A DNA stretch of 14,270 nt from Comamonadaceae bacterium (lineage in GTDB: Bacteria > Pseudomonadota > Gammaproteobacteria > Burkholderiales > Burkholderiaceae_C): contig JAJTBK010000429.1 of the NCBI GenBank assembly GCA_021286965.1, positions 1-14,270 of the forward strand. Direction: 5' to 3'. Position numbers and translations under genes: made by a program. This document shows positions 1 through 12,731 of the stretch, one piece after another; the first letter of the stretch is position 1, and the number at the start of each line of letters is the position of its first letter. The notes beneath the pieces are model-generated. The model did not search any database. It was given only the letters and a program-made list of their open reading frames with translations, and had not been told where the DNA came from.

Positions 1-24
1 GGTGGGGGTGGCTTGATCGGTCAT
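1..24 (-). CDS. N-terminal codons of a divergent gene, probably copper-exporting P-type ATPase (partial)
   Basis: Only eight codons are visible, reading leftward from an ATG at 24-22 (MTDQATPT) with no stop before the window edge. The sequence alone does not identify the protein. The copA guess rests on context: it lies just downstream of a CueR-type promoter with a 19-bp spacer and is divergent from copZ-cueR, a frequent arrangement for copA. No Shine-Dalgarno sequence precedes the ATG, and the predicted -10 is only 10 nt upstream. Confidence 0.4.
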
Positions 25-34
25 GGTGGTGCGC

Positions 35-65
35 AGCTTAAACCTTGACATCCTGTCAAAGTCAA
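35..65 (-). promoter_or_regulatory. MerR/CueR-type promoter and operator for the leftward gene
   Basis: On the minus strand a -35 TTGACT (65-60) and a -10-like TAAGCT (40-35) are separated by 19 bp, the over-long spacer typical of promoters activated by MerR-family regulators. Between them lies a 21-bp dyad at 42-62, with arms ACCTTGACA and TGTCAAAGT around TCC (one mismatched pair). In this family a metal-loaded regulator bends the DNA to realign the two hexamers. CueR, encoded at 349-768, is the likely ligand. The assignment is inferred from sequence geometry. Confidence 0.6.
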
Positions 66-80
66 GCAAGATGGCAGGCG

Positions 81-112
81 CTTGACCTTGCCACCATGTC
101 AAGCTGCACCAT
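81..112 (+). promoter_or_regulatory. Second CueR-type dyad, probable promoter of copZ-cueR
   Basis: A second inverted repeat has perfect 6-bp arms CTTGAC (81-86) and GTCAAG (98-103). Read rightward, TTGACC (82-87) can act as -35, and CACCAT (107-112) as a poor -10 after a 19-bp spacer. This would make copZ-cueR autoregulated by the same copper sensor. The -10 matches only three consensus positions, so the promoter is less certain than the dyad. Confidence 0.45.
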
Positions 113-154
113 AGCGCCTGTTCTCACTTTGCCCCTTTGGAAAGGAAGCCCGCC

Positions 155-352
155 ATGCAATACCAATTCACCGTCGAAGGCATGACCTGCGGCCACTGCG
201 AGCGCGCCGTGGTGCACGCCGTGCGCGAGGTCGATACCGAGGCCGTGGTGCAGGTCGATCTGGCCACCAAGCAGGTCACCGTCGAGAGCGACGCCGCCCG
301 CGAAGCCATCGCCAATGCCATCCAGGAAGAAGGCTACAAGGTCGTCGCATGA
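155..352 (+). CDS. copZ: Copper chaperone CopZ-like (heavy-metal-associated domain)
   Basis: A 65-residue single-domain HMA protein. It carries the metal-binding loop GMTCGHC near residue 10, in which the two cysteines of MTCxxC coordinate Cu(I). The rest fits the compact ferredoxin-like fold of the family and ends EEGYKVVA. Such chaperones carry cytosolic Cu(I) to a P-type ATPase or to the regulator. The ATG at 155 is chosen because AAGGA (142-146) precedes it at a good distance; an upstream in-frame TTG at 137 is not supported. The stop codon overlaps the start of cueR (ATGA at 349-352), so the two are translationally coupled. Family assignment is firm. The ligand could in principle be another soft metal, but the CueR-like partner argues for copper. 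Confidence 0.9.
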   Translation: MQYQFTVEGMTCGHCERAVVHAVREVDTEAVVQVDLATKQVTVESDAAREAIANAIQEEGYKVVA

Positions 353-768
353 AGTCCGCCGCTGCTGCGCCGCGCTGGCCCGTCACCATCGGCCAGGCAG
401 CCGGGCTTGCCGGTGTGTCGGCGCGCATGGTGCGCCACTACGAGGGCCTGGGCCTGCTCGGCGGCGTGGCGCGCACCGGCAGCGGCTACCGCCAGTACAC
501 CGAGGCCGAGGTGCACCAGCTGCGCTTCATCCGCCGCGCGCGCGACCTGGGTTTTTCCATGGAAGAAATCGCCCAGCTCCTGGGCCTGTGGCAAGACAAG
601 GCGCGCGCCAGCAGCCAGGTCAAAAAAATTGCCCAGCAGCACATCGCCAGCCTGGCCGAGCGCATCACCGCCCTGCAGGCCATGCAGCGCAGCCTGCAGG
701 CGCTGGTGGGCTGCTGCCATGGCGACGAGCGGCCCGACTGCCCGATCCTGGATGACCTGGCGGGCTGA
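349..768 (+). CDS. cueR: MerR-family Cu(I)-responsive regulator (CueR-like)
   Basis: 139 residues, the normal length for CueR. An N-terminal MerR winged helix-turn-helix (TIGQAAGLAGVSARMVRHYE, about 13-32, then the wing with GYRQYTE) is followed by a dimerisation helix and a C-terminal metal loop with Cys123 and Cys131 in the spacing C-x7-C (CHGDERPDC). That pair binds one Cu(I) in CueR. Serine rather than cysteine in the segment before the long helix (ASSQV) fits the monovalent-metal branch instead of the Zn/Hg branch. The start overlaps the copZ stop, with AAGG seven nt upstream inside copZ. It should activate the two dyad promoters at 35-112. Its stop lies 3 bp from the convergent DUF3297 gene. 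Confidence 0.88.
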   Translation: MKSAAAAPRWPVTIGQAAGLAGVSARMVRHYEGLGLLGGVARTGSGYRQYTEAEVHQLRFIRRARDLGFSMEEIAQLLGLWQDKARASSQVKKIAQQHIASLAERITALQAMQRSLQALVGCCHGDERPDCPILDDLAG

Positions 769-771
769 AGC

Positions 772-1029
772 TTATTTGTAAAACACCTCGACGCTGCCCT
801 TGAGCGCGAGCAGCAGCGGGCGGCCCGTACGGTCGCGGGTTTTGCCGGCGGGCACCTTGATCCAGCCTTCGCTGACGCAGTATTCCTCGACGTCAAAGCG
901 CTCCTTGCCATTGAGCCGCACGCCAATGTCGGCCTGCTGCGCCAGCACGGCGGCGGCGTGGTGCGGGCTGCGCGGGTCGATCGCCAGGCGGTCGGGCAGG
1001 GGCAGAAGATTGTCGGCAAAGTTGTTCAT
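772..1029 (-). CDS. DUF3297 family protein
   Basis: An 85-residue soluble protein that I recognise as DUF3297 from LPDRLAIDPRSPHH near the N-terminus, the central VEEYCVSEGWIKV and the closing LKGSVEVFY. Length matches the family and the function is unknown. No signal peptide or membrane segment is visible. The ATG at 1029 is preceded by GAGG with about 7 nt spacing. A -10-like CACAAT on the minus strand (1073-1068) lies about 40 bp upstream. The gene is convergent with cueR, only 3 bp between stops, leaving no room for a dedicated terminator. Confidence 0.85.
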   Translation of the reverse strand: MNNFADNLLPLPDRLAIDPRSPHHAAAVLAQQADIGVRLNGKERFDVEEYCVSEGWIKVPAGKTRDRTGRPLLLALKGSVEVFYK

Positions 1030-1098
1030 GGCGGGGCCTCAAAGATGCAAAAAAACGAAAGGCCGCCATTGTGGCCCAAGCCAGGAATGGCTTTGTTT

Positions 1099-1165
1099 AC
1101 TATTAAAACAATAGCTATTCACGCTTGCTACATAAGCGCTAGAGGCTTTTTTGGCTCAAAAAATC
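1099..1165 (+). repeat. Dispersed Comamonadaceae-type intergenic repeat, copy 1
   Basis: The copy starts with a small hairpin CTATT-AAAAC-AATAG, then GCTTGCTACATAAGC (a second hairpin), then GCTAGAGGC followed by a T/A-rich tail. Two further copies are visible at 11917-11983 (minus-strand gene) and 12551-12599 (opposite orientation). The shared order is CTATnAAAA..AGCT, an arm of GCGCTT type, its complement, and TAGAGGC or CTAGGC. I have seen similar elements between genes in Acidovorax and Comamonas relatives; that statement is from memory and was not searched. This copy lies between the DUF3297 gene and DnaA-box module A. Confidence 0.65.
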
Positions 1166-1171
1166 AGCCCC

Positions 1172-1382
1172 TGTGGACAACTGCGGGCACAACGCCGGCA
1201 CAAGCCGCCCTCTGTCCCCAAGTGCAGGCCGCCTGGCATTTTTATCCACAAACCCGGTACACCTGGCGCTGGGGCCCATCCCCAAACTTGTGGATAAGCC
1301 AAGTCATTGTCAAAAAAAGAAAATCACCGCTTATCCACAGACACGGGCAGGGCTCTACTACTACCACTATGTCTTTTTAATA
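1172..1382 (+). repeat. DnaA-box / DnaA-trio module A (origin-like element)
   Basis: Intergenic module with DnaA boxes TGTGGACAA (1172-1180, one mismatch), TTATCCACA (1242-1250), TGTGGATAA (1289-1297) and TTATCCACA (1331-1339). The last box is followed after 15 nt, G-rich in its 3' half, by CTACTACTACCACTATG (1355-1371) and then TCTTTTTAATA. The complement of the tract reads as repeated 3'-GAT-5' triplets, the signature of DnaA-trios next to an origin unwinding region. The distance from the first box to the last is 159 bp, the same as in module B. Together with copy 1 of the repeat, this accounts for most of the gene-free stretch 1030-1432. Confidence 0.7.
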
Positions 1383-1432
1383 CCTTGAAAGAACAACCCT
1401 GAAAGCCCCAGCGCCCCCTTCAACACCCTGGT

Positions 1433-2686
1433 TCAGCGCAACAGCCAATACCCCACGCCCATGGCAGCGGCGATGCCGACGGCGTCGGCAAACAAGGCGC
1501 AGGCCAGGGCATGGCGGGTGTTTTTGATGCCCACGCTGCCAAAGTACACCGCCAGCACGTAAAACGTGGTCTCGGTCGAGCCCTGCATGATGGCTGCCAG
1601 GCGCGCGGGAAAGGAATCGACGCCGTAGGTCTGCATCACGTCCACCATCAGGCCCCGGGCGCCCGCGCCCGAGAGCACCTTCATCAGCCCCACGGGCAGG
1701 GCCGGCAAAAAATCGGTGTTCCAACCCAGCCCGGCCACCAGGCGTGCGACCACGGCCAAAACGGCATCCATACAGCCCGCAGCGCGAAAAACGCCAATCG
1801 CCGCCAGGATGGCGATGAGGTAGGGAATGATCTGCACCGCCACGCCAAAGCCCTCCTTGGCGCCGTCGATGAACGCTTCATACACGTTCACACGCCGCCA
1901 AGCCCCCGCGAGCAAAAACAGCAGCACCAGTCCCAAAATCACGGCGGCCCCCAAGGCGCCAGTGATGTCCGCCGCCTGCTGCGCCGGCAGCCGTGCCAGC
2001 GCCGCCACCCCCGCCCCGAGCAAACCCGTCACCGCCAGCAGCGGCAACAAAAACCGTGCCCGCCACAGCGGCAGGCGCTGCACCAGGCCCAGCAGCAGCA
2101 GCGCAGCAACAAAGGCAATGGCCGTGGCCAGCAGCGTGGGCACAAAAATATCGGCGGCGTTGAAACCCGCGCCCAGGCCCTGCTTCAAGGCCACGCTCTG
2201 GCGCATGGCGATGACTGCGGTCGGGATCAGCGTCAGCCCGGCGGTGTTGAGCACCACGAACATGATTTGCGCATCGCTGGCCACGCCCTCGGGTTCGCGG
2301 TTGAGGCTTTGCAACTCACGCATCGCCGTCAGGCCCAGGGGGGTGGCGGCGTTGTCCAGGCCCAGCAGGTTGGCCGAGAAATTCATGGTCATGGCGCCCT
2401 GTGCCGGGTGGCCGGCGGGCACGCCCGGAAACAGCAGGCGCAAAAGCGGCGCCGCCAGGCGTGCCAGCAGCGCCACCATGCCGGCCTTCTCGCCCACGCG
2501 CATCAGCCCCAGCCACAGCGCCATGACACCGGCCAGGCCCAGGGCAATGTCAAAACCGGCGCGCGCACCGTCGAACAAGGCTTGCAGCAGCTGGGAAAAA
2601 ATCTGCGCCTCGCCCAGCCACCAGCGCACCGCCGCCGTGGCGCAGGCGCTGACGAAAAAAACAATCCACACCACGTTCAGCGCCAT
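1433..2686 (-). CDS. SpmA-SpmB fusion, nucleoside-recognition (Gate) domain membrane protein
   Basis: 417 residues, very hydrophobic, with two homologous halves that are separate SpmA and SpmB proteins in Bacillus. The N-terminal half has the SpmA-type signature NFSANLLGLDNAATPLGL (around residue 102). The C-terminal half has the SpmB-type segments AFIDGAKEGFGVAVQIIPYL and STETTFYVLAVYFGSVGI. Roughly ten membrane helices are expected. Gate-domain proteins resemble nucleoside transporters, but their substrate in non-spore-forming proteobacteria is not known, and the Bacillus name is only historical. The ATG at 2686 has AAAGGG about seven nt upstream. It begins 18 bp after the rdgC stop, so the two probably share a transcript. 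I see no clear terminator downstream, where module A begins. Confidence 0.85.
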   Translation of the reverse strand: MALNVVWIVFFVSACATAAVRWWLGEAQIFSQLLQALFDGARAGFDIALGLAGVMALWLGLMRVGEKAGMVALLARLAAPLLRLLFPGVPAGHPAQGAMTMNFSANLLGLDNAATPLGLTAMRELQSLNREPEGVASDAQIMFVVLNTAGLTLIPTAVIAMRQSVALKQGLGAGFNAADIFVPTLLATAIAFVAALLLLGLVQRLPLWRARFLLPLLAVTGLLGAGVAALARLPAQQAADITGALGAAVILGLVLLFLLAGAWRRVNVYEAFIDGAKEGFGVAVQIIPYLIAILAAIGVFRAAGCMDAVLAVVARLVAGLGWNTDFLPALPVGLMKVLSGAGARGLMVDVMQTYGVDSFPARLAAIMQGSTETTFYVLAVYFGSVGIKNTRHALACALFADAVGIAAAMGVGYWLLR

Positions 2687-2704
2687 GGCCAGGCCCTTTG
2701 CGGA

Positions 2705-3733
2705 TTAAAACGGCGCGGTGTTCGGGTCGGTGTCCACCGGCGCCTGCGCCGGCCCGGTGACGGTGCCCCCGCTCCTGCGTGTGGATGGCGCTGTGGTGTT
2801 GCCTGATATGGCGGCGGTGGGGGGCGCTGCAGTGGTCGGCTCCAGGCTGCGGCCCTCGCCGCCCAGGGCTTCGATCAGGTCGGGAATGAGCTTGGACAGC
2901 TCCCCCGTGGCGATGGCCACGTCGGTGTCAAAGCCTTCGTCGGCGCTGTCCTGGCCCTCGAACACGCTGTCGAGGAAGCTGATTTTTTTCAGCTGCAGGC
3001 CCTCGGTGAGCAGGAACGAGACGCGCTCGTCCCAGGTCAGCGCCAGCTTGGTCGGCAGCTTGCCGGCGTCGATGTGCGCGCGCACCTCGTCGATGTCGAG
3101 CGGGTGGCGCGCGTAGCGCACCACGGCCTTGGATTCGTCGGCGCTCTTGAGCTCGCATTCGCGATCCACGGAAAAGCCCACCGGCGCCTCCTGCTCCTTG
3201 AGCCAGTGCGCCATCGCAGCCTGAGGGGAAGTCTGGGTGTCGAGCAGCGCCAGGGCAAAGCCGGGCAGCAGCTCGGTCAGCACCGAGGCGATCTCGTCGG
3301 CATGGCCCTGGCTGCCGGTATCGAGCACCAGCGTGTGGGCGCTGGGGTCGATCCAGACCCAGGTCGAGCCCTGCTTGGTGAACGCCATCGGCAGCAGGTC
3401 GAGCTTGGCCTCGTCCTTGAGCTCGCGGCTTTCCTTCTTGCCCGGCTTGCGCCCGGTTTCCTGCTCGATGCGGGCGGCTTTTTCCTGCACTTTGCGCGCC
3501 AGCACGCTCGCCGGCAGCAGCTTGCTCTCTTGCATGAAGCGCAGCAGCCATTGGCCGCCCACGCTCTCGGCCAGCGCCCCGTGGGCCTGGCCGCGCGGCG
3601 GCACAAAGCCGCTGCTGCGCTCTTGCGTGGCCCCGCATTCGGTGAATGGGGCTTTTTGCAGCGCCGCCTCCAGCACCTCCAAACCGATCTGCCATGTGGG
3701 CGCGATGCGGTACACGATCATGTTCTTGAACAC
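2705..3733 (-). CDS. rdgC: Recombination-associated protein RdgC
   Basis: 342 residues. RdgC forms a ring-shaped dimer that binds double-stranded DNA without sequence specificity and restrains RecA-promoted strand exchange. Recognised from the N-terminus FKNMIVYRI, the GFVPPRG block, the FTKQGSTWVWIDPSAHTLVLD core and the LTWDERVSFLLTEGLQLKKI region. The GTG at 3733 is chosen because AGAGGA lies five nt upstream and family members begin FKN-x-(I/M)-VYR; the ATG four codons later has no such support. After about residue 295 comes a 47-residue Pro/Thr/Ala-rich tail, probably disordered, beyond the end of the ~303-residue E. coli protein. It lies upstream of spmAB in the same direction and is divergent from the Spy-like gene. 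Confidence 0.93.
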   Translation of the reverse strand: MFKNMIVYRIAPTWQIGLEVLEAALQKAPFTECGATQERSSGFVPPRGQAHGALAESVGGQWLLRFMQESKLLPASVLARKVQEKAARIEQETGRKPGKKESRELKDEAKLDLLPMAFTKQGSTWVWIDPSAHTLVLDTGSQGHADEIASVLTELLPGFALALLDTQTSPQAAMAHWLKEQEAPVGFSVDRECELKSADESKAVVRYARHPLDIDEVRAHIDAGKLPTKLALTWDERVSFLLTEGLQLKKISFLDSVFEGQDSADEGFDTDVAIATGELSKLIPDLIEALGGEGRSLEPTTAAPPTAAISGNTTAPSTRRSGGTVTGPAQAPVDTDPNTAPF

Positions 3734-3761
3734 GCGGATCCTCTGCTGTGGTGAAAAAAGT

Positions 3762-3821
3762 GCGCGATTGTCGCGCCTGCTGGCGAACTTTACACAGCCT
3801 CACGCAAGCGGCACGCCGCTT
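3762..3821. promoter_or_regulatory. Two perfect dyads in the rdgC / spy-like divergent region
   Basis: Two perfect inverted repeats lie between the divergent starts: GCGCGA-TTG-TCGCGC (3762-3776) and AAGCGGC-AC-GCCGCTT (3806-3821). The second abuts TTGACA (3821-3826), a possible rightward -35, though no good -10 follows at 16-18 bp. On the leftward strand the first dyad is followed by a run of six T within two nt, so it could instead act as a short attenuator ahead of rdgC. Which role applies cannot be decided from sequence alone. Confidence 0.4.
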
Positions 3822-3878
3822 TGACACAAGAGGCGCACACTGCCTTCCCATCATCCACCACCACCGAAGGAAAGCACC

Positions 3879-4409
3879 ATGAACCTCCTGCCCCGCCACG
3901 CCATTGCCGGCGCCGCCGCAGCCCTGTTCGCCACCCTGGCCCTGCCGGCCTTTGCCCAGGCCCCCGTGAGCAACCCCAGCACGCCCGACCCCCAGGTGCG
4001 CTACGAGCCGCGTCCCGAGCGCATGGAGCGTATGCAAAAGCGCATGGGCGAATTCAAGCAGGCGCTGCAGCTGAACCCGGCGCAGGAAGACGCCTGGAAC
4101 CAGTACCAGCAAGCCATGAAGCCGCCGACCCAGCCGCCCGCCCGTCCGGACGTGGAGGCGTTCAAGCAGCTCTCCACCCCCGAGCGCATCGAGCGCCTGC
4201 GGGCCCTGCGCGAGCAACATGCGGCCGAGATGGATCGTCGGGGCGAAGCGACGAAGGCGTTCTACGCCCAGCTCAACCCGGCACAGCAAAAGACGTTCGA
4301 CGCCCACTCCTTGCGCTGGATGCAACGGATGCACGACCATGACCACGGCCCGCGCCACGGTGCAATGCGCGGATCCAAGCCACCGGTCAGCGCACCCGCA
4401 CAGCAATAA
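3879..4409 (+). CDS. Spy/CpxP-like periplasmic protein with LTxxQ-type motifs
   Basis: 176 residues. A classical signal peptide (MNLLPRHAIAGAAAALFATLALPAFA, cleavage after residue 26) directs it to the periplasm. The mature part is rich in charged helices and contains two LNPAQ motifs (about residues 65-69 and 132-136), variants of the LTxxQ motif of Spy and CpxP, which are envelope stress chaperones or regulators. Arrays of Arg, Glu, Gln and Met match the helical cradle fold. The C-terminus is His/Met-rich (MQRMHDHDHGPRH), which suggests metal binding. The ATG at 3879 has GAAGGA seven nt upstream. The gene stands alone, divergent from rdgC; no terminator is obvious before module B starts 11 bp downstream. 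The exact role is inferred from the family. Confidence 0.78.
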   Translation: MNLLPRHAIAGAAAALFATLALPAFAQAPVSNPSTPDPQVRYEPRPERMERMQKRMGEFKQALQLNPAQEDAWNQYQQAMKPPTQPPARPDVEAFKQLSTPERIERLRALREQHAAEMDRRGEATKAFYAQLNPAQQKTFDAHSLRWMQRMHDHDHGPRHGAMRGSKPPVSAPAQQ

Positions 4410-4419
4410 CCCGCCTTCA

Positions 4420-4637
4420 TGTGGATAACTTTGGGGATTGTTTTTGAGCAACCCCGGGTTTATCCACATCGACACCGCCCGGTGCCAAGTTGTACCCAAA
4501 CCGCGCCGCACTTGCCCCTGTGCCTGACCACACCTTTTTTCCGTACATAACTGCTTGTCATGGAAAGAAATTTCATAGTTATCCACAAAATTTAGCGCCT
4601 TCTACTACTATCACTATGTATTGTTATTACATGAGTA
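4420..4637 (+). repeat. DnaA-box / DnaA-trio module B (origin-like element)
   Basis: DnaA boxes TGTGGATAA (4420-4428), TTATCCACA (4460-4468) and TTATCCACA (4579-4587), all perfect. The last is followed after 14 nt by CTACTACTATCACTATG (4602-4618) and then TATTGTTATTA. First-to-last box distance is 159 bp, as in module A. Between the boxes there is no open frame of coding character. It lies directly downstream of the Spy-like gene. Confidence 0.7.
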
Positions 4638-4698
4638 CAAGATAGTGGTTGATCGCCGCTGGCAGCGGCAGGTCAGTTCCAGCGGCCTCGGATAACTC

Positions 4699-4895
4699 TG
4701 TGGATAAAAAAAGCACAACGCCCCAGTTTTCCACTGCCTGAAAGATGGCCTGCCAACTGTCCCCAAACCTGGTACAGCACCGAAGCAGGGTCGCGCACAG
4801 CCTTGTACATTGGTCTAACTGCTTGCCACGCCAAGAAAAAAACAGGTTATCCACAAAAATCGGCGGCTTCTACTACTACCACTATGTTTTTATAA
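4699..4895 (+). repeat. DnaA-box / DnaA-trio module C (origin-like element)
   Basis: DnaA boxes TGTGGATAA (4699-4707) and TTATCCACA (4847-4855), both perfect. The second is followed after 14 nt, which include CGGCGGC, by CTACTACTACCACTATG (4870-4886) and then TTTTTATAAAAA. A stretch CCAAACCTGGTACA is shared loosely with module A (ACAAACCCGGTACA), suggesting duplication of one ancestral element. With module B and the two terminators this fills the gene-free stretch 4410-5019; short frames crossing it read through these motifs and show no recognisable protein. Confidence 0.7.
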
Positions 4896-4928
4896 AAACA
4901 AAGAAGGAAAAGTCAGACAGAAGAAAAA

Positions 4929-4955
4929 ACCGCCGGCGCTCTGCGCCAAAGCGGT
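4929..4955 (-). terminator. Second, distal leftward intrinsic terminator after aroG
   Basis: Read leftward: ACCGC, three unpaired T, GGCGC, loop AGA, GCGCC, one unpaired G, GCGGT, then a run of six T. The imperfect two-part stem plus T-run resembles an intrinsic terminator and backs up the stronger one at 4984-5006. Confidence 0.55.
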
Positions 4956-4983
4956 ACCCCGGAAGAAAAAACACAGGCGTAAA

Positions 4984-5006
4984 AAAACCGCCCTCAGGGC
5001 GGTTTT
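4984..5006 (-). terminator. Intrinsic terminator of the leuA-nlpC-aroG direction
   Basis: A perfect 10-bp stem AAAACCGCCC / GGGCGGTTTT with a three-base loop, with seven A on the plus strand giving a T-run on the leftward transcript. It lies 13 bp beyond the aroG stop codon. Its symmetry means it may also stop rightward transcripts leaving module C. Confidence 0.9.
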
Positions 5007-5019
5007 CATGATATGAAAA

Positions 5020-6123
5020 TTACACAGTACGCCGGCTGCGCACCGCCGCTGCAAGCTGCTGCAGCACGGGTACGGTCTGGGCAAAGCTGATGCAGGCGTC
5101 CGTCACCGACACACCGTAGGCCAACGGCTGGCCTGCCACGATGTCCTGGCGGCCTTCTTCCAGGTGGCTTTCAATCATCACGCCGGTAATGCGCGTCTCG
5201 CCAGCGGCAATTTGCGCGGCCACGTCTTGTGCCACGTCGATTTGCTTGGCGTGCTGCTTGCTGCTGTTGGCGTGCGAGAGATCGATCATCACCTGCTCGC
5301 GCAGCCCGCTCTTGTGCAGCAGGGCGCAGGCCGCCTGCACGTCGGTGCGGGCGTAGTTGGGTTGCTTGCCGCCGCGCAGGATGATGTGGCAGTCGTGGTT
5401 GCCACGGGTTTCAAAAATGGCGGCCTGGCCCATTTTCGTCATGCCCATGAAGGCGTGCTCTGCCTGCGCTGCCAGGATGGCATCGGCAGCGACTTTCACG
5501 CCGCCGTCAGTGCCGTTTTTAAAGCCCACGGGGCACGAGAGGCCGCTGGCGAGCTGGCGGTGGCTCTGGCTCTCGGTGGTGCGCGCGACGATGGCGCCCC
5601 AGCTCAACAGGTCGCGGATGTACTGGGGCGAGAGCAGGTCGAGGAATTCGGTGCCGACCGGCAGGCCCAGTTCCAGCACGTCCAGCACCAGGGCGCGCGC
5701 CATCTCCAGGCCCTCGTTGATGGCAAAGCTGTCATCCATGTGCGGGTCGTTGATGTAGCCCTTCCAGCCCACCGTGGTGCGCGGTTTTTCAAAGTACACG
5801 CGCATCACGATCAGCAGGTCTTGCGCCAGGGCGTCGGCCTGTTCCTTGAGCAACTGCGCGTACTGCATGGCCTGCTCGTGGTCGTGGATGGAGCAGGGGC
5901 CGACGACGACGATCAGGCGGTCATCCTGGCCGTGCAGCACGCGCGAGAGCGCCGCGCGGCTGCTTTCCACCAGCTGCTGCGCTGGCACCGGCGTGGGCAG
6001 CCATTCTTCGAGGATGGCCGGGGTGATGAGCGGGCGCACCGCCTTGATGCGCACATCGTCGATGCGCGTGCGGTCTTGCGTGGACAAGGGGGTGGCGTGG
6101 TGGGGGTGGGCAGTGGTGGTCAT
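5020..6123 (-). CDS. aroG: 3-deoxy-7-phosphoheptulonate (DAHP) synthase, class I
   Basis: 367 residues, slightly longer than E. coli AroG (350). It condenses phosphoenolpyruvate and erythrose-4-phosphate, the first step of the shikimate pathway to aromatic amino acids, in the cytoplasm. Visible motifs are VVGPCSIHD with metal-ligand Cys77, KPRTTVGWKG (113-122, phosphate binding), GFKNGTDGG (about 200-208) and DLSHANSSK. An N-terminal extension before the barrel matches the feedback-regulated type; which aromatic amino acid inhibits it cannot be told from sequence here. The ATG at 6123 lacks a good Shine-Dalgarno sequence, and a -10-like hexamer sits 8 nt upstream. It follows nlpC by 35 bp, is followed by two terminators, and may be co-transcribed with leuA. 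Confidence 0.93.
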   Translation of the reverse strand: MTTTAHPHHATPLSTQDRTRIDDVRIKAVRPLITPAILEEWLPTPVPAQQLVESSRAALSRVLHGQDDRLIVVVGPCSIHDHEQAMQYAQLLKEQADALAQDLLIVMRVYFEKPRTTVGWKGYINDPHMDDSFAINEGLEMARALVLDVLELGLPVGTEFLDLLSPQYIRDLLSWGAIVARTTESQSHRQLASGLSCPVGFKNGTDGGVKVAADAILAAQAEHAFMGMTKMGQAAIFETRGNHDCHIILRGGKQPNYARTDVQAACALLHKSGLREQVMIDLSHANSSKQHAKQIDVAQDVAAQIAAGETRITGVMIESHLEEGRQDIVAGQPLAYGVSVTDACISFAQTVPVLQQLAAAVRSRRTV

Positions 6124-6131
6124 AGCCCACC

Positions 6132-6161
6132 ATTGTGGCGCTGTGGCGCAGGTGCTGTTCA
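6132..6161 (-). promoter_or_regulatory. Candidate aroG promoter giving a near-leaderless mRNA
   Basis: On the minus strand TGAACA (6161-6156, four of six consensus -35 bases) and CACAAT (6137-6132) are separated by 18 bp. The -10 ends 8 nt before the aroG ATG, so a transcript would start almost at the start codon. The -35 overlaps the nlpC stop codon. Confidence 0.35.
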
Positions 6162-6665
6162 GGGGCGGCGAAACGCCACCACCTGCCTGGCCCAGTAAGG
6201 GCCGCTCAGGCGGTCGAGCCGCACCTCGCCGCCGCTGGAGGGCGCGTGCACAAAGCGCCCCTGGCCGACGTAGATGCCGGCATGGCTGGGCCGGGCGCCG
6301 CCAAACACCACCAGATCGCCGGTGCGCAGCGCCTCGGCATCAACGGCAGCGCCAAATTGGTTGAGCTGGGCTACGGTGCGCGGCGGCGCCACGCCGGCCC
6401 GGCTTTGGTACACGTAGCCGATCAGGCCGCTGCAGTCAAAGCCGCCTTCGGGCGTGTTGCCACCGTAGCGGTAGGGGGTGCCGACCAGGCCCAGGGCGTG
6501 GATGGCAATGTCGCTCGACTGCTCGGGCGAGAGTTGCTCCGGCGCCAGCACCGCCAGGCCGCTGCGCTGTGGCGGCGCACTGGAGCAGCCGGCCAACAGC
6601 AGGGCGCAGCCCAGGGCCAGCAGGCCCCGGTGGTGCCGGCGTGACAAAAAACGCAAACCACTCAT
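6159..6665 (-). CDS. NlpC/P60 family lipoprotein, peptidoglycan endopeptidase
   Basis: 168 residues from the ATG at 6665. The N-terminus has a lipoprotein signal with lipobox LLLAGC, so Cys27 should be lipidated. The rest is an NlpC/P60 domain with catalytic Cys78 in GGFDCSGLIGYVY, His128 in PSHAGIYVG and His140 in FVHAPSSGG, the normal Cys-His-His arrangement of gamma-D-glutamyl-diamino acid endopeptidases of the NlpC/Spr type. It probably acts in the periplasm on peptide stems during wall growth. The ATG at 6665 is preferred because the lipobox is then correctly placed; the frame extends 37 codons upstream into leuA but that extension is Arg/Pro-rich and not signal-like. No clear Shine-Dalgarno sequence. 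It lies 34 bp after leuA and 35 bp before aroG. Confidence 0.88.
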   Translation of the reverse strand: MSGLRFLSRRHHRGLLALGCALLLAGCSSAPPQRSGLAVLAPEQLSPEQSSDIAIHALGLVGTPYRYGGNTPEGGFDCSGLIGYVYQSRAGVAPPRTVAQLNQFGAAVDAEALRTGDLVVFGGARPSHAGIYVGQGRFVHAPSSGGEVRLDRLSGPYWARQVVAFRRP

Positions 6666-6699
6666 GGTTGGCGAGCTTAGCGCAGGGCGGCGCCAGGCA

Positions 6700-8403
6700 T
6701 CAAGCCATGGCCTGGGGGCGGGCCTGCGCCGCTGCCTGCGGTGGCTGGCGCCGCTGGCGCAGCCGGTTGGCAGCACTCACCATGGCCTGCACCGAGGCGG
6801 TGACGATGTTGTGGTGCAGGCCGACGCCAAAGGTGGCGCCGGGCAGGCCGTCCATGCCCGCCTCCACCAGGGCCAGTGCCTGCGCGCCCGAGCCGCTGCC
6901 GGTGGCGCGCTCCTCGTAGCCGTGGATGCGCAGCGGCAGGCCGAGCGCATCGACGGCGGCATCGATCGGGCCGTTGCCCTGGCCCTGCAGCGTCAGGCGC
7001 TGGCCGTCGATGGCGACGTCAATTTCAATGTGCTGGCCGTCGCCCGCCAGGCGGTGGTCGCAGTACGTCACCATGCCCGGCACGCCCTGGGGCTGCTGCA
7101 GGTAGGTGGCCTGGAACAGGGCCCAGAGGGCTGCGCCCGTCATCTCGGCCTCGCTCGCGTCGGCGGCACGCTGCACCACGGCGCTGAACTCGACCTGCAT
7201 CCGCCGGGGCATGACGATGCCGCGCTCGCGTTCGAGTAGGTAGGCAATGCCGCCTTTGCCCGACTGGCTGTTGACGCGCACGATGCCGTCGTAGCTGCGC
7301 CCCAGGTCTGCCGGGTCGATCGGCAGGTAGGGCACCTGCCACGGGCCAGTGCTGTCGTGCGCGGCAAAGCCCTTCTTGATCGCGTCCTGGTGCGAGCCCG
7401 AGAACGAGGTGAACACCAGGTCGCCGGCGTAGGGGTGGCGCGGATGGATCGGCAGGCCGGTGCATTCCTCGGCCACGCGTGCGACGGCGCCGATGTCGGA
7501 AAAATCCAGCCCCGGGTGCACGCCCTGGGTGTAGAGGTTGAGCGCCACCGTCACCAGGTCGAGATTGCCGCTGCGCTCGCCGTTGCCGAACAGGCAGCCT
7601 TCCACGCGCTCGGCGCCGGCGAGCAAGGCCAGCTCGGCGGCGGCCACGCCCGTGCCCCGGTCGTTGTGCGGGTGCACCGAGAGCACGATGTGCTCGCGCG
7701 GGTGGAGGCGCTGGTGCATCCACTCCACCTGGTCGGCAAAGCGGTTGGGCGTGGCGTTTTCCACCGTGGTCGGCAGGTTGATGATGACGGGGCGCTGCGG
7801 GCCCACGCCCCAGGCGATGAGCGCGGTCTGGCAGGCTTTGAGCGAGACGTCGAGCTCGGTGGCGTTGAAGGTTTCGGGCGAGTACTGCAGCGTCCACTGC
7901 GTCTCGGGCTGGGCGTCGGTCAGGTGCTTGAGGTGGCTGACGTGCTCGTGCACGAAGGCCAGCATCTGCGTCACGTTCATGCCGAACACCACGCGGCGCC
8001 ACACCGGGGCGGTGGCGTTGTACAGGTGCACGATGGCGCGCGGCGCGCCGCGCAGCGCCTCGACGGTGCGCGCGATCAAATCGGGGCGCGACTGCGTCAT
8101 GACCATCAGGGTCACGTCCTCGGGAATGAGGTCTTCGTCGATCAGGCGGCGCACGAAGTCGTAGTCGGTCTGCGAGGCGGCGGGAAAGCCGACTTCGATC
8201 TGCTTGAAGCCGATGCGCACCAGCTCCTGAAAGAGCTTCATCTTGCGCGCGCCGTTCATGGGCTCGAACAGCGCCTGGTTGCCGTCGCGCAGGTCGGTCG
8301 AGAGCCACTGCGGCGCGCGGCTGAGGGTGTTGGCGGGCCAGCGGCGCTCGGTGAGGGTGATGGGGGCGGCGGCGGGGTACTTGCGGGAAGGCTGGGCAAT
8401 CAT
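6700..8403 (-). CDS. leuA: 2-isopropylmalate synthase (long LeuA type)
   Basis: 567 residues. It condenses acetyl-CoA and 2-oxoisovalerate, the committed step of leucine synthesis. The HMGL-like TIM barrel shows STDLRDGNQAL (about 35-45; metal-ligand Asp37) and HPHNDRGTG (metal-ligand histidines), followed by NGERSGNLDLV. The C-terminal part (from about residue 430) matches the LeuA allosteric domain that binds leucine. The WPANTLSRAPQWLSTDLRDG start and the length are of the actinobacterial/yeast-like class rather than the ~520-residue E. coli class. The ATG at 8403 is chosen because GGAG lies eight nt before it; an in-frame GTG at 8415 overlaps that Shine-Dalgarno. Upstream is a probable leader-peptide attenuator (8529-8632). 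Confidence 0.94.
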   Translation of the reverse strand: MIAQPSRKYPAAAPITLTERRWPANTLSRAPQWLSTDLRDGNQALFEPMNGARKMKLFQELVRIGFKQIEVGFPAASQTDYDFVRRLIDEDLIPEDVTLMVMTQSRPDLIARTVEALRGAPRAIVHLYNATAPVWRRVVFGMNVTQMLAFVHEHVSHLKHLTDAQPETQWTLQYSPETFNATELDVSLKACQTALIAWGVGPQRPVIINLPTTVENATPNRFADQVEWMHQRLHPREHIVLSVHPHNDRGTGVAAAELALLAGAERVEGCLFGNGERSGNLDLVTVALNLYTQGVHPGLDFSDIGAVARVAEECTGLPIHPRHPYAGDLVFTSFSGSHQDAIKKGFAAHDSTGPWQVPYLPIDPADLGRSYDGIVRVNSQSGKGGIAYLLERERGIVMPRRMQVEFSAVVQRAADASEAEMTGAALWALFQATYLQQPQGVPGMVTYCDHRLAGDGQHIEIDVAIDGQRLTLQGQGNGPIDAAVDALGLPLRIHGYEERATGSGSGAQALALVEAGMDGLPGATFGVGLHHNIVTASVQAMVSAANRLRQRRQPPQAAAQARPQAMA

Positions 8404-8528
8404 GATCGGCTCCACGAATCAAAACGGCAATGCTTGGAAAACAAGATGCGGCATCCCCTGCAGCCCTTCACGCGGGGGGGAAGGCTGGTGTGTGGGCCGG
8501 GATCGGGGGGATGCGGTGGTTGCGCGCA

Positions 8529-8546
8529 AAAGCCGCTGCGGGCTTT
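8529..8546 (-). terminator. Candidate attenuator hairpin in the leuA leader
   Basis: Read leftward: AAAGCC, loop CGCAGC, GGCTTT, continuing into T and then GCG. It is a terminator-like hairpin with a short T-run, placed directly at the end of the leader peptide. A second possible interaction in the 8416-8528 leader is GGGGATGC (8507-8514) with GCATCCCC (8451-8458), and GATGC/GCATC next to TTGTTTT (leftward, near 8436-8455) is a weak alternative. The actual attenuator pair cannot be decided by eye. Confidence 0.4.
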
Positions 8547-8632
8547 CAGGCAACCAGGGTGGCGAACGCAGGCAGACCCCGGCCAGGTACTAGACCTAGC
8601 GCTAGGGTGGCGGTGAGCAGGCTGCGTTGCAT
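8546..8632 (-). CDS. Putative leucine leader peptide (LeuL-like) upstream of leuA
   Basis: A 28-codon frame beginning MQRSLLTATLALGLV and ending ATLVA, 142 bp ahead of leuA. Codons 5, 6, 10, 12, 14, 20 and 26 are leucine. Codons 10, 12 and 14 are CTA and codon 15 is GTA, rare codons in this GC-rich genome where leuA itself uses almost only CTG and CTC. Slow decoding of rare leucine codons is the known principle of leuL attenuation in E. coli. A hairpin follows directly (8529-8546). A -10-like TACGAT (8647-8642) ends 9 nt before the ATG and no Shine-Dalgarno is present. The peptide's role is inferred; the alternative is a chance frame. Confidence 0.55.
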   Translation of the reverse strand: MQRSLLTATLALGLVPGRGLPAFATLVA

Positions 8633-8679
8633 AGGGCGGCCATCGTAGCACAGGCGTTTGCACCTGTGCGCTGGCGCGT

Positions 8680-9084
8680 TCAGCGGGCGCGCTCGGCGTA
8701 GCGCGTAAAGCGCAGCGCCTGGCCCTCAGCGGTGATGCGGCGCCAGACGGCGCGCTTTTCGCTCGGGTCGAGTTCGAGCCACTGCTGCACTTCGGCAAAG
8801 CTGCGCCCGCAGCCCTTGCACTGCGCGTCGCCCTGGCTGGTCGAGCAAATGGCGATGCAGGGGGTGTCGCTCTGGCACTCGTACCAGGCCAGCCAGGCGG
8901 CCAGTGCCGGGGCGCTGAATTCTGTGGCCAGGGCCTCGCTGCGGCGGTGGTAGGCCAGGTGGGCGTAGAGCGTGGCCAGCGCCGCCACTTCGGGCGCCAG
9001 CGCGGCGCCCGTTGGCACCGGGCGCAGGGCGCGCCAGTGGTTGATGGCGGCTTCGATGTCGGTGATGTGGATGGCGCAGCGCAT
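8680..9084 (-). CDS. DUF3717-DUF1289 domain protein
   Basis: 134 residues from the ATG at 9084. The N-terminal part ITDIEAAINHWRAL is the DUF3717 signature. The C-terminal half is DUF1289: DTPCIAICSTSQGDAQC with KGCGRSFAEVQQWLEL, whose four conserved cysteines probably hold a metal or iron-sulfur centre. Function is unknown; DUF1289 proteins are small, cytoplasmic and often near metabolic genes. The start is uncertain, because an in-frame ATG at 9099 gives five more residues but overlaps the -10-like TATGAT (9100-9095). No Shine-Dalgarno precedes either codon. It is divergent from the riboswitch-terC unit. An imperfect hairpin, CACAGG/CCTGTG at 8649-8668, lies downstream but has no T-run. Confidence 0.8.
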   Translation of the reverse strand: MRCAIHITDIEAAINHWRALRPVPTGAALAPEVAALATLYAHLAYHRRSEALATEFSAPALAAWLAWYECQSDTPCIAICSTSQGDAQCKGCGRSFAEVQQWLELDPSEKRAVWRRITAEGQALRFTRYAERAR

Positions 9085-9135
9085 GGGGGGCGCGATCATA
9101 GAACGTGCCCATAGAACTGTGTTCCAATACCGGCT

Positions 9136-9245
9136 CTTCAAAGGGGAGTAGCTCCTCGTTGCCAGGTCGTCAACACGAAATCTTGCGATTTCCGGCCTGT
9201 CAGGCTGGCGCACGGCGCGCCGGCCGAGCAAGACCTTTGAGCCCG
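9136..9245 (+). promoter_or_regulatory. yybP-ykoY Mn2+ riboswitch aptamer
   Basis: Recognised by its conserved pieces in order: TCAAAGG (9138-9144) joined to GGAGTAGCTCC, then GGTCGTCAACACG (9165-9177), a variable GC-rich arm, and GAGCAAGACCTTTGA (9226-9240). TCAAAGG and CCTTTGA form the closing P1 helix with seven perfect pairs. This RNA class senses Mn2+ and typically controls Mn2+ exporters, which agrees with the TerC gene 100 bp downstream. Confidence 0.88.
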
Positions 9246-9332
9246 GGGCCCTCACGCGCCCGGCTCAAAGCGTTGTGCGCCCCACCGGGCCTGCCCCGCC
9301 CCCGCCGTCCGTGTGCCCCTTCGTTGTGAAGG
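9235..9332 (+). promoter_or_regulatory. Expression platform of the terC riboswitch
   Basis: CTTTGAGCC (9235-9243), which contains the 3' strand of P1, can alternatively pair with GGCTCAAAG (9262-9270), nine perfect base pairs, so aptamer and alternative helix are mutually exclusive. Further down CCTTC (9318-9322) can pair with the Shine-Dalgarno GAAGG (9328-9332) over a five-base loop. There is no T-run after either helix, so control is more likely translational or Rho-dependent; the stretch 9279-9320 is strikingly C-rich, as rut sites are. By analogy Mn2+ would turn expression on. Confidence 0.6.
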
Positions 9333-9339
9333 CATTGCT

Positions 9340-10092
9340 ATGGATTTGGATTTTCTTACCCACACCCCGTTCTGGATTGCGCTCGGCCAGATCGTCGTCA
9401 TCGACATCCTGCTTGGCGGCGACAACGCCGTCGTCATCGCCCTGGCCTGCCGCAAGCTGCCGCCGGCGCTGCGCACGCGGGGCATTTTGTATGGCACGGC
9501 GGGCGCCATCGGGCTGCGCGTGCTGCTCATCGTCTTTGCCATGGCGCTGCTGCAGCTGCCGGCGCTCAAGCTGGTGGGGGCGCTGCTGCTGCTGTGGATC
9601 GGCGTCAAGCTGCTGGCGCCCGATGAGGATGCCCACGGCTCGATCGAGGGCAGCGACAAGCTGCTGGCGGCGATCCGCACCATCATCGTGGCGGATTTGG
9701 TGATGAGCGTGGACAACGTCATCGCCATCGCCGGCGCGGCCCAGGCCTCGCACCAGGATCACCATGTGCTGCTGGTGTCGCTGGGGCTGCTGATCTCCAT
9801 CCCCATCATCATCTGGGGCTCGCAGCTGGTGCTGCACCTGATGGAGCGTTTTCCGTTCATCATCACCGCCGGCGGCATGTTGCTCGGCTGGATTGCGGGC
9901 GGAATGCTGGTGACCGATCCGCTGTTCTTGCACCCCGAGCAATGGCCGTGGGCGCCCAAGCTGGGCAGCCTCAACGCCCAGGGTTTGGCTGAAATCAGCC
10001 GCCCCCTGTACTGGGGCGCGCACCTGGGCGGGGCGCTGCTGGTGCTGGCGCTGGGGCAGTGGCTCAAGGGGCGGCGCCAGCGCGCGGCCTGA
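9340..10092 (+). CDS. TerC-family membrane protein, probable Mn2+ exporter
   Basis: 250 residues with about seven membrane helices. Two conserved acidic motifs face each other in the TerC repeat: GGDNAVVIAL with Asp28 and SVDNVIAIAG with Asp125. A cytoplasmic loop rich in acidic residues (APDEDAHGSIEGSD) separates the halves, and a His-containing stretch (QASHQDHH) follows. TerC relatives such as Alx and MeeF/MeeY-type proteins export Mn2+; the upstream yybP-ykoY riboswitch makes this the likely substrate. The ATG at 9340 is chosen from GAAGG seven nt upstream; a GTG at 9313 lies inside the control region. It is followed by a small membrane protein gene 38 bp downstream. Confidence 0.88.
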   Translation: MDLDFLTHTPFWIALGQIVVIDILLGGDNAVVIALACRKLPPALRTRGILYGTAGAIGLRVLLIVFAMALLQLPALKLVGALLLLWIGVKLLAPDEDAHGSIEGSDKLLAAIRTIIVADLVMSVDNVIAIAGAAQASHQDHHVLLVSLGLLISIPIIIWGSQLVLHLMERFPFIITAGGMLLGWIAGGMLVTDPLFLHPEQWPWAPKLGSLNAQGLAEISRPLYWGAHLGGALLVLALGQWLKGRRQRAA

Positions 10093-10130
10093 ACACCGTC
10101 ATTGGCGCGCCTGCGGTATCCTGGCGCGCT

Positions 10131-10484
10131 ATGAAACTGCTCTTCAAATGGCTGCTCAGCGGTGCCGCCCTGCTGCTGGTGGCCCAGCTCTACAGCGGCG
10201 TCGAGGTGCGCAGCTTTGGCGCAGCGCTGTGGGCGGCGCTGGTCATCGGCCTGTTCAACGCCGTGCTGCGCCCGCTGCTGGTGGTGCTGACACTGCCGGT
10301 GACGGTGGTCACCGTGGGCCTGTTTTTGTTCGTCATCAACGCCCTCATGTTCTGGGCCGCAGCCGGGGTGCTCGACGGTTTTCACGTCGGCGGCTTTGGC
10401 GCGGCGCTGCTGGGTTCGCTGCTGTATTCCGCCTTGGGGCTGGCGGTCGATTCAGCGCTCGAGCGCCTGTTCCCGCGCCAGTGA
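10131..10484 (+). CDS. Phage holin family 4-type small membrane protein
   Basis: 117 residues with about four membrane helices. The pattern (IGLFNAVLRPLLVVLTLPVTVVTVGLFLFVINALMFW) is that of the phage_holin_4_2 family, chromosomal proteins common in bacteria and not evidence for a prophage. Function unknown. The ATG at 10131 has no Shine-Dalgarno; a -10-like TATCCT (10117-10122) ends 8 nt upstream. The last 33 bp overlap the 3' end of the convergent protease gene. It may be read with terC. Confidence 0.82.
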   Translation: MKLLFKWLLSGAALLLVAQLYSGVEVRSFGAALWAALVIGLFNAVLRPLLVVLTLPVTVVTVGLFLFVINALMFWAAAGVLDGFHVGGFGAALLGSLLYSALGLAVDSALERLFPRQ

Positions 10485-11993
10485 CTGCACGGCACGCAGC
10501 CGCGTGTCGATGATCGAAGCCTCGACGTAATCAGCCGCCGCGCTGCTCTGGCGTGCCAGGTCTTGCCCGGCCTTGAAGCGGTCGATGGCGCCAGCGTAGT
10601 CGCAATGCGCCACCTGCGCCTCGGCCTCGGCGCGGATGGCGCGCAGGCGCTGGCCCTGCTGCTGCCAGGCTTGCGCCAGCAGCTGCCACAGCGTGGCGTC
10701 CTGCGGGTGCTCGACCAGCCAGGTCTCCAGCGCCCCCGTCACCTCGGCCCCCTGCCCCAGGCGCAGCGCCGCCTGGCTGCGCAGCAGCAATTCTGGCCGG
10801 GCGCGGCTCGGGCCGGTGAGCAAGGCGGCCACCTGCTCGGGCTTGCCCGCCTGCAGCGCGATTTCAGCGGCCAGCAGGCGCACCTGGCGCGCGGCGCCGG
10901 CGTGGCTGGTGCTGGCAGTACGCAGCAGCTCCAGGTTGCGCTCGGCAGCGGCCCATTCGCCCGCCTGGGCATGGCCCAGGGCGGCGGCGTACCAGGCGGC
11001 CACTTTCTCTGCGGGCGCCCGGCTGGCAAAGCCGGTGCTTTGCGGCTCGGCCATCCACTGGCGCAGCAAATCGACACCGGGGCGCGCGAGCACGCGCGCG
11101 CGGGCGGCGAGCATGGCGTGTTCGAGCGTGGGCAGCGGGCTCGGCGCTTGCGCCAGCGCGGCGGGCAGGCGCGCGTGCATGTCGGCCATGCGCTCGGTGG
11201 TCAGCGGGTGGCTGCGCAGGTAGGGCCAGCTGCCGTTGTCGTTCAGGCGGTTGGCCTGCTGCAGCTTGTCGAACATGCTGACGAAGCCCTGCGGCGCAAA
11301 GCCGGCGGGCTGCATCAGGCTGTAGCCGACGCGGTCGGCCTCGCGCTCCATGTCGCGGGAGAAGTTGAGCTGGTTTTGCACCGCCAGCGCTTGGCCGCCG
11401 ACCATCAGCGCCTGGCCGGCGTTCGGGCTTTTGCTGGCTGCGAGTGCGCCCAGCACCATGGCGCCGATCATCAGCGGCGTGCTGCGCTGCTGCTGCGCCA
11501 TCAGGCGTGCGATGTGGCGCTGCGTGATGTGGCTGAGCTCGTGCGCCAGCACCGAGGCGAGCTCGTCGCGGCTCGTGACGACGCCGATCAGCCCCAGGTG
11601 CACGCCCATGTAGCCGCCGGGCAGGGCAAAGGCGTTGACGCTGCGGTCGCGCCCGAGCAGGATGTGCCAGGCAAAGCGCTCTTGCAGCTCCGGCGCGAGC
11701 TCGCCGCGCGCGCGCGCCGCCTGCACCAGCTGGTCAAAAATGCCCTGCACGTATTCCTGCAGCGGGGCGTCGTCGATGTAGTCCGGGTCGCGGTAGAGCT
11801 CGCGGATGATGCTGTCGCCAATGCGCCGCTCGGCGCTGGTGGTGAGCGCCAGGCCGTCGCCCAGCGTCGGCAGCGCCGACTGCGCGTGCACCGGCGGCGC
11901 CTGTAGCCCCCCTATTGCTATCAAAAGAGAAGCTGCTAGCGCTTGTCCACAGCGCCTTAGAGGCAAATTTTGTTTGATTTTTTGCACGGCCAT
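10452..11993 (-). CDS. Periplasmic M48 metalloprotease with TPR-like C-terminus (BepA-like)
   Basis: 513 residues. A signal peptide (GQALAASLLIAIGGLQAPPVHA, cleavage near residue 37) sends it to the periplasm. The M48 domain carries the zinc motif HELSH (151-155) in VLAHELSHITQRH, with the third ligand Glu218 in MEREADRVG. The C-terminal ~200 residues are alanine-rich helical repeats of TPR type, as in BepA (YfgC), which degrades or assists assembly of outer-membrane proteins such as LptD. Two starts are close together: ATG at 11993, and GTG at 11987, which has AAGGA five nt upstream. Residues 4-26 are encoded by a dispersed repeat (11917-11983). The tail overlaps the holin-like gene by 33 bp; both proteins read ALER over the palindrome GCGCTCGAGCGC (10455-10466). 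Divergent from moaC. Confidence 0.9.
   Translation of the reverse strand: MAVQKIKQNLPLRRCGQALAASLLIAIGGLQAPPVHAQSALPTLGDGLALTTSAERRIGDSIIRELYRDPDYIDDAPLQEYVQGIFDQLVQAARARGELAPELQERFAWHILLGRDRSVNAFALPGGYMGVHLGLIGVVTSRDELASVLAHELSHITQRHIARLMAQQQRSTPLMIGAMVLGALAASKSPNAGQALMVGGQALAVQNQLNFSRDMEREADRVGYSLMQPAGFAPQGFVSMFDKLQQANRLNDNGSWPYLRSHPLTTERMADMHARLPAALAQAPSPLPTLEHAMLAARARVLARPGVDLLRQWMAEPQSTGFASRAPAEKVAAWYAAALGHAQAGEWAAAERNLELLRTASTSHAGAARQVRLLAAEIALQAGKPEQVAALLTGPSRARPELLLRSQAALRLGQGAEVTGALETWLVEHPQDATLWQLLAQAWQQQGQRLRAIRAEAEAQVAHCDYAGAIDRFKAGQDLARQSSAAADYVEASIIDTRLRAVQSLAREQALER
11917..11983 (+). repeat. Dispersed repeat copy 2, inside the protease signal-peptide coding region
   Basis: GCTATCAAAAGAGAAGCTGC, then TAGCGCTTGTCCACAGCGCC, then TTAGAGGCAAATTTTG: the same order of elements as copy 1 (1099-1165) and copy 3 (12551-12599). 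The copy lies entirely within the 5' part of the M48 protease gene and is read antisense as its residues 4-26. Confidence 0.65.
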
Positions 11994-12066
11994 CCTTGGG
12001 CGCCCAGGGCGCGGGCGCAGGGCCGTATGATGCCCGGCTTGCCCTTTGCGTTCCGCCTTTTTTGCC

Positions 12067-12558
12067 ATGACCACCAGCTCCCCCCTCACCCACTTCGATG
12101 CCCAGGGCCAGGCCCACATGGTGGACGTGGGCGCCAAAAGCGCCACGCGCCGCCAGGCGATCGCCACCGGCCGCATCCGCATGGCGGCGGCCACGCTGGC
12201 GCTGATTGCGAGCGGCAGCGCCAAAAAAGGCGATGTGCTGGGCGTGGCGCGCATCGCCGCCATCATGGCGGCGAAGAAAACCAGCGACCTGATTCCGCTG
12301 TGCCACCCGCTGGCGCTGACCCGCGTGGCAGTGGAATTTGCCCTGCTGTCGGCAGACAACGCCGTGCAATGCACCGCCACGGTAGAAACCGTGGGCCCGA
12401 CGGGGGTGGAGATGGAGGCGCTGACCGCCGTCCAGGTGGGCCTGCTGACGATCTACGACATGTGCAAGGCGGCCGACAAGCACATGGTGATGGAGGGCGT
12501 GCAGGTGCTGGAGAAGCACGGCGGCAAATCGGGCAGCTTTGTGGCTGATTTAGCCTAG
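12067..12558 (+). CDS. moaC: Cyclic pyranopterin monophosphate synthase MoaC
   Basis: 163 residues, normal family length. With MoaA it converts GTP to cPMP, the first stage of molybdenum-cofactor synthesis, in the cytoplasm. Seen are [23 protein letters not shown] (79-80 CH), [10 protein letters not shown] and YDMCKAADK, where Asp131 and Lys134 correspond to the catalytic pair of the E. coli enzyme. The ATG at 12067 has no Shine-Dalgarno; an in-frame TTG at 12046 is not supported. A -10-like TATGAT lies at 12026-12031. The last codons (TTA GCC TAG) fall in dispersed repeat copy 3. No other molybdopterin gene is in the window. Confidence 0.93.
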
Positions 12559-12676: not shown

Positions 12677-12691
12677 CCGTGAAGGCTGGCG

Positions 12692-12697: not shown

Positions 12698-12731
12698 CCG
12701 CCCTGGGACGGGCGCAAACAGGGAATGCACA

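Follow-up and report, generated by a model that had tools for sequence, protein, structure and literature searches.

Introduction

In Escherichia coli, the datA and DARS loci are clusters of DnaA boxes that lie away from dnaA and are not known to have an unwinding element; these regulators change the nucleotide state of DnaA with IHF/Fis. The basal unwinding system (BUS) of the chromosomal origin, oriC, is described as a DnaA-box, a spacer and DnaA-trios (Pelliciari et al. 2021, PMC8287927), and the BUS program, which allows a spacer of 0-16 nt, is reported to narrow almost all genomes to a single candidate (PMC8287927). Bipartite origins, such as those of Bacillus subtilis and Helicobacter pylori, are described as having two subregions, one of which has the unwinding element, with dnaA as the usual spacer and a length of up to ~2 kb (PMC4285127). 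Putative double oriCs pair a dnaA-adjacent with a distant origin, as at dnaA and hemE of Ralstonia pickettii 12D, 291 kb apart, or involve a dnaA duplication (Gao 2015, PMC4403523). Here we examine a 14,270-nt stretch of a Comamonadaceae bacterium genome (GCA_021286965.1, contig JAJTBK010000429.1, positions 1 to 14,270; hereafter the window), in which positions 1172-1404 and 4420-4919 very probably make up a chromosomal oriC at a distance from dnaA, in which a ~230-bp core occurs as three homologous copies in one orientation, modules M1, M2 and M3 (Table 1).

This reading was drawn from GC skew, parS proximity, phylogenetic spread and homologous modules that adjoin dnaA in some relatives, and it favours one of three options raised in an earlier note on this DNA, that of a real oriC away from dnaA, over a datA/DARS-like locus or a spreading origin-derived repeat. 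Each module resembles the published BUS in its perfect box, 14-15-nt spacer, trio tract and AT-rich DNA, but three such units occur here in one origin region. As in the bipartite origins described, coding sequence divides the box clusters; unlike them, the window does not consist of two subregions with a single unwinding element but has three subregions, each with a trio tract and an AT-rich stretch, over a span of 3.75 kb with Gate-domain, rdgC and LTXXQ genes as the spacer. More than one predicted origin per chromosome recalls the putative double oriCs, whereas the modules described here are homologous, lie within 4 kb and have counterparts in other genera. The unusual part is the presence of two or three complete opening modules in one origin. 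Literature searches, which left most subscription papers and DoriC outside their reach, returned no such architecture, by title or abstract start among the papers listed, for duplicated or tandem oriC, nothing joining DnaA-trio with Comamonadaceae or oriC with Acidovorax and rdgC, one Cupriavidus genome for Comamonadaceae with oriC and a DnaA box, no title on this architecture for oriC with DnaA boxes in Acidovorax, and nothing for datA/DARS2 with hemE and a DnaA box.

Results

Three modules with boxes, trio tracts and AT-rich DNA

A scan of the whole window found eight perfect DnaA boxes (TTATCCACA/TGTGGATAA), all of them confined to two intergenic regions, as the earlier note had described; its chance expectation of about 0.1 was replaced by 0.025 per window on an independent-base estimate. 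With one mismatch allowed the window held 12 box matches, a cluster far above chance (shuffles: mean 0.80, maximum 4, 0/200 reaching 12). The modules were proposed to share one order beginning with a reverse box, and the common layout was recovered: an outer reverse box is followed by inner boxes and a last TTATCCACA, then by 14-15 nt, CTACTACTA(C/T)CACTATG and AT-rich DNA. First-to-last box spans of 159, 159 and 148 bp and spacers between the last box and the tract of 15, 14 and 14 nt (M1, M2 and M3, respectively) reproduced the values given before. The reverse box that opens M1 (1172-1180, TTGTCCACA), however, has one mismatch and is additional to the eight perfect boxes.

The tracts had been described as runs of 3'-GAT-5' trios on the complement; four triplets of each fit the trio consensus, as three consensus trios are followed by one off-consensus triplet (3'-GGT-5' or 3'-AGT-5') and one further consensus trio. 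Each module places a box no more than 16 nt from at least three trios with a central adenine. The AT-rich stretch reported after each tract was also present, the 50 bases rightward from each tract start ranking in the top 0.3-0.9% for AT among the window's 50-mers, and an AT-rich candidate unwinding region adjoins the boxes at each tract. One IHF-like site was seen in the two module regions, at 1378(-), with one mismatch to the consensus. In the window's own 2.73-Mb genome, a draft of 571 contigs and 87% completeness, the tract CTACTACTANCACTATG occurs three times, always inside the window, and 8 of the 19 perfect boxes are in the window.

GC skew and parS sites point to a probable origin at the modules

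The cumulative GC skew proposed as a check in the earlier note was computed for the complete congener G002 over one unbroken stretch of 307 kb with dnaA inside it, the remainder being sampled only. The minimum fell at 3,076,970, which is 0.4 kb from the M3 tract (3,076,606) and 58 kb from the start of the dnaA match (3,134,928). The window's own draft shows a local sign change near M3, with a fourfold-site skew of -0.07 over 1400-4410 and +0.12 over 4900-14270.

Across 22 genomes from 17 genera with dnaA distant or on another contig, the skew step at the modules was positive in 21, using all bases and likewise using fourfold sites. The step at dnaA was positive in 3/17 (all bases) and 2/17 (fourfold sites), and was negative in all of three more genomes with dnaA at a record edge; of the control stretches, which were drawn from G001, G002 and five further genomes and include one stretch with dnaA, 28/64 had a positive step. 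The 22 genomes, which include related and hence non-independent ones, were drawn from 31 stretches (26 positive). Nine were dropped, namely those of the six genomes with dnaA adjacent, that of G100, and a second stretch each from G241 and G007 (5/9 positive).

Exact matches to a parS consensus were found on the chromosome contig of five genomes (G002, G006, G075, G226 and G266), and in all five they were nearer to the modules (~17-45 kb from the nearest) than to dnaA (79-287 kb). G001 and G003 had no exact match, and that of G000 was on another contig. Counts of GGGNAGGG, a KOPS-like motif, were tried as a marker of the strand switch and proved too sparse alone.

In the family, the modules and dnaA are usually apart

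The earlier note described a locus without dnaA, and the gene was located on a different contig (C248), with one perfect box upstream. Among 30 family genomes examined for the distance between the two, 22 had module and dnaA on one contig and 8 on different contigs. A module lay 39-259 kb from dnaA in 16/22, and in 6/22 (G059, G067, G102, G238, G242 and G250) it lay 25-128 bp from the dnaA match, which is what came of the suggested comparison with dnaA-proximal regions. None of the 18 stretches with dnaA that came from genomes with modules elsewhere yielded a module, and the nine of these scanned for perfect boxes had one each. We infer that dnaA and the origin became separated in the window's lineage. 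Adjoining dnaA, G238 has two divergent modules (L293 9788-10279), with outer boxes face to face and tracts outward.

When GTDB genomes were scanned for the bare box-plus-tract motif, the matches listed comprised 80 loci, against 119 stretches reported, and were mostly Firmicutes by title. A DnaA-like match was present in 66 of these 80, nearly always just upstream of the motif (downstream in L197). The 14 others comprised nine named Burkholderiales, 'Pantoea sp. 18069', whose rdgC-LTXXQ neighbourhood resembles the window's family, and four that end within ~100 bp upstream of the motif; L199, among the ten Burkholderiales or lookalike loci, has only 206 bp of upstream sequence.

The module is conserved across the family

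Among selected loci, a relaxed scan recovered 39 modules. We aligned 35 of them, which belong to congeners, further members of the family and named loci (Curvibacter, Paracidovorax, Simplicispira, a Burkholderiaceae metagenome-assembled genome (MAG) and 'Pantoea sp. 18069'); two Janthinobacterium MAG modules, one Polynucleobacter MAG module and one duplicate of G053 were excluded. Conservation extends over ~230 bp, from the outer reverse box and another box ~40 bp further along, through a weak TTGTCCCC site, a CAAGT..TTG block and an A-rich run, to the last box and the tract. The search of relatives suggested in the earlier note was made with a sequence-only profile of 235 positions (E <= 0.001), superseding a first, stricter pattern that matched just 12/199 relatives and was too strict for copy counting. 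The profile matched 195/200 family genomes, once in 131, twice in 53 and three times in 11, so that 64/200 have at least two matches; as the filters were strict and eleven candidates were scored in each genome, weak copies may be missed. Conservation in relatives, at one region per chromosome, is as expected of an oriC.

Among the matches listed, genomes with several copies on one contig had them within ~30 kb, except G241 (46 kb), and 36 of the 38 adjacent pairs no more than 25 kb apart were co-oriented. The copies of G016 and G042 were on different contigs. On contig C1 of G241, the modules at 48934 and 95365 have opposite orientation, and on C1 of G007 three modules of one chromosome (40051, 49252 and 69328) are spread over 29 kb.

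Synteny, tree and conservation of the copies

The order DUF3297-[M1]-Gate-domain gene-rdgC-LTXXQ-[right-hand module(s)]-aroG is common to four congeners, with two right-hand modules in G002, as in the window, and one in G001 and G003. G006, from another genus, has M1 and two right-hand modules, while G007 and G075 have M1 and one within the stretches covered; M1 is at the same place in four genera. Two modules right of LTXXQ were also found in Curvibacter (three loci), Paracidovorax, Simplicispira, the Burkholderiaceae MAG and 'Pantoea 18069'. The window's assignment to the family follows kinship labels and synteny with named loci; its source is a relative of Paracidovorax. In a tree built from 63 modules over 235 columns, with modest support, one G241 module clustered with the first right-hand copies from Paracidovorax, G006, G091, G266, G007 and the Burkholderiaceae MAG (81/89), and the second copies of Paracidovorax, G091, G006 and G266 formed a separate, weakly supported cluster (85/46). 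M1 of the window's genus joined M1 of G075 (87/90) and then that of G007 (96/74), G006 M1 had no resolved place, and G238 and G250 duplicated independently in their own lineages. Several module duplications therefore seem to predate the genera.

Between the window and G002, box positions were identical at 81/81 and tract positions at 50/51 over all three modules, while the remaining module positions had drifted to 84% (M1), 75% (M2) and 81% (M3) identity, a pattern suggesting that the DnaA sites of each of the three are under selection; fourfold sites of six local genes were 79-97% identical. In two Curvibacter loci (L214 and L225), the sequence right of the tract is near-identical between both modules of one genome, suggesting either gene conversion between the two or an additional conserved element (AAAGAAGAAGTCAG).

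A box array downstream of hemE

Elsewhere in the window's own genome (contig C378; L026 7844-8269), co-directional DnaA boxes without a trio tract lie downstream of hemE. Three extra boxes on C378 were considered as a fourth module and excluded, as the full profile did not match them (best 7.4 bits). In relatives (L320-L332), the hemE array has at least one perfect box in 11/13 genomes and at least two in 9/13, forms a repeated array in G250, and lies 60-937 kb from a module in the nine of these 11 genomes with both placed. On its sequence the array is a candidate datA/DARS-like locus, an option it fits better than the modules do. A hemE-adjacent putative origin is given for Ralstonia pickettii 12D (Gao 2015, PMC4403523).

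Genes around the modules

The window carries ordinary chromosomal genes by Pfam (rdgC, aroG-like and leuA-like), which makes a plasmid origin of the window unlikely. At gathering thresholds, Rfam found nothing in the window besides one tRNA.

Table 1. Modules, trio tracts and genes of the window, in window positions.
Feature	Position	Strand	Details
Module 1 (M1)	1172..1404	+	between DUF3297 and Gate-domain gene; boxes 1172-1180(-, one mismatch), 1242-1250(+), 1289-1297(-), 1331-1339(+); AT-rich 1372-1400; profile 160.6 bits
DnaA-trio tract of M1	1355..1371	+	trios on complement; 15 nt past box 1331-1339
Module 2 (M2)	4420..4645	+	boxes 4420-4428(-), 4460-4468(+), 4579-4587(+); AT-rich 4619-4647; profile 143.6 bits
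DnaA-trio tract of M2	4602..4618	+	14 nt past box 4579-4587
Module 3 (M3)	4689..4919	+	boxes 4699-4707(-), 4847-4855(+); AT-rich 4887-4915; profile 160.1 bits
DnaA-trio tract of M3	4870..4886	+	14 nt past box 4847-4855
DUF3297 gene	775..1029	-	Pfam; left neighbour of M1 in congeners, G006, G007, G075 (synteny)
Gate-domain (nucleoside recognition) gene	1433..2686	-	Pfam, synteny; between M1 and M2; presumably SpmAB-like
rdgC	2705..3733	-	Pfam, synteny; between M1 and M2
LTXXQ-family gene	3879..4409	+	Pfam, synteny; directly left of M2
DAHP synthase (aroG-like)	5020..6123	-	Pfam, synteny; right neighbour of M3
tRNA gene	12603-12676	-	Rfam

Discussion

By analogy with the basal unwinding system as published, DnaA would occupy the outer boxes of each module, and DnaA on the last TTATCCACA would be guided across the 14-15-nt spacer onto the trio tract of one strand and stretch that strand; the AT-rich DNA right of the tract would then open for helicase loading. 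Most initiation probably takes place at M2/M3, the point at which strand composition changes over. Three genes and 3.2 kb further left, M1 would be a conserved third copy acting as a second opening site or as an assisting DnaA platform.

Several observations weigh against an oriC at the modules. Skew is weak in the family, and in the second complete congener, G001, it is just roughly centred on the module. In the six dnaA-adjacent genomes the step at the module was positive in 3/6 (all bases) and 1/6 (fourfold sites), and skew leaves the module unconfirmed where dnaA is adjacent. G029 is an outright exception, with a negative step at its distant module and a slightly positive one at dnaA, and five of the 200 family genomes had no profile match. 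If this were a datA/DARS-like locus for titrating or reactivating DnaA and the true origin lay beside dnaA, many high-affinity boxes near housekeeping genes with dnaA elsewhere would be accounted for. The modules resemble E. coli datA/DARS in having boxes distant from dnaA; they differ in having putative unwinding elements, whereas a box cluster without an unwinding module marks such loci. Because the modules carry these parts and mark the skew switch, sitting at the skew minimum, and because the dnaA stretches of genomes with distant modules held no module, we regard this explanation as highly improbable. A spreading origin-derived repeat without a replication role would fit copy numbers that vary from one to three between genomes and the lineage-specific duplicates of G238 and G250, but no genome among the 200 had more than three matches and, among the matches listed, 36 of the 38 neighbouring pairs within 25 kb are co-oriented. 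The tract is found nowhere else in the window's own genome. A repeat of this kind can hardly be credited, and we retain the oriC away from dnaA.

As to the number of modules of this oriC that open, we regard as a serious possibility, short of a probability, a natural multi-opening origin: two or three modules, homologous and for the most part co-oriented, would lie within a few kb, and each could open by its own DnaA-guided unwinding element and load helicase. A single working origin, most likely M3 or the M2/M3 pair, with M1 and the other copy as DnaA-binding accessories or decaying duplicates, is nearly an even prospect; likened to the box-only half of a bipartite origin, it keeps the oriC and contests the multiple openings alone. 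Between M1 and M2, the genes on the minus strand show low fourfold-site skew in G000-G003 (Gate-domain gene -0.12 to -0.04, rdgC -0.02 to +0.08) compared with minus-strand genes right of M3 (0.00 to +0.22). This difference suggests that forks start mainly at M2/M3, with M1 assisting or firing rarely. This location of the switch favours a single working origin, as the M1-M2 interval would then lie left of the main start and M1 may not fire. The same-strand genes also look left-of-origin in G266, G091 and Paracidovorax, where M1 was not found (the Paracidovorax locus stops short of the M1 position), and 131/200 genomes had one profile match. The short DUF3297 gene left of M1, however, has skew of the opposite sign (+0.11 to +0.20; 35-45 sites), which speaks against so simple a reading, and gene-specific bias could mimic the M1-M2 pattern. 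Against mere accessories or decaying duplicates stand the boxes and tracts kept in all three modules relative to G002 while the rest drifts, and the position of M1, the same in four genera, three of whose M1s cluster in the tree.

dnaA is a common indicator gene for origin location (Ori-Finder 2022, PMC10225481), and origins in this family could therefore be misplaced, given the 39-259 kb between dnaA and the module in 16 of 22 genomes. The repeated module also offers a natural test of the number of unwinding elements that an origin can use, and it bears on how a single round per cycle is maintained when there are several elements and on the loading of two helicases. For the latter, 36 of the 38 adjacent pairs among the matches listed are co-oriented, and one dnaA-adjacent pair, in G238, is divergent, a natural arrangement for loading on both strands. 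If the multi-opening origin is real, one chromosome would have alternative or cooperating initiation sites that bracket genes and have been retained across several genera of one family.

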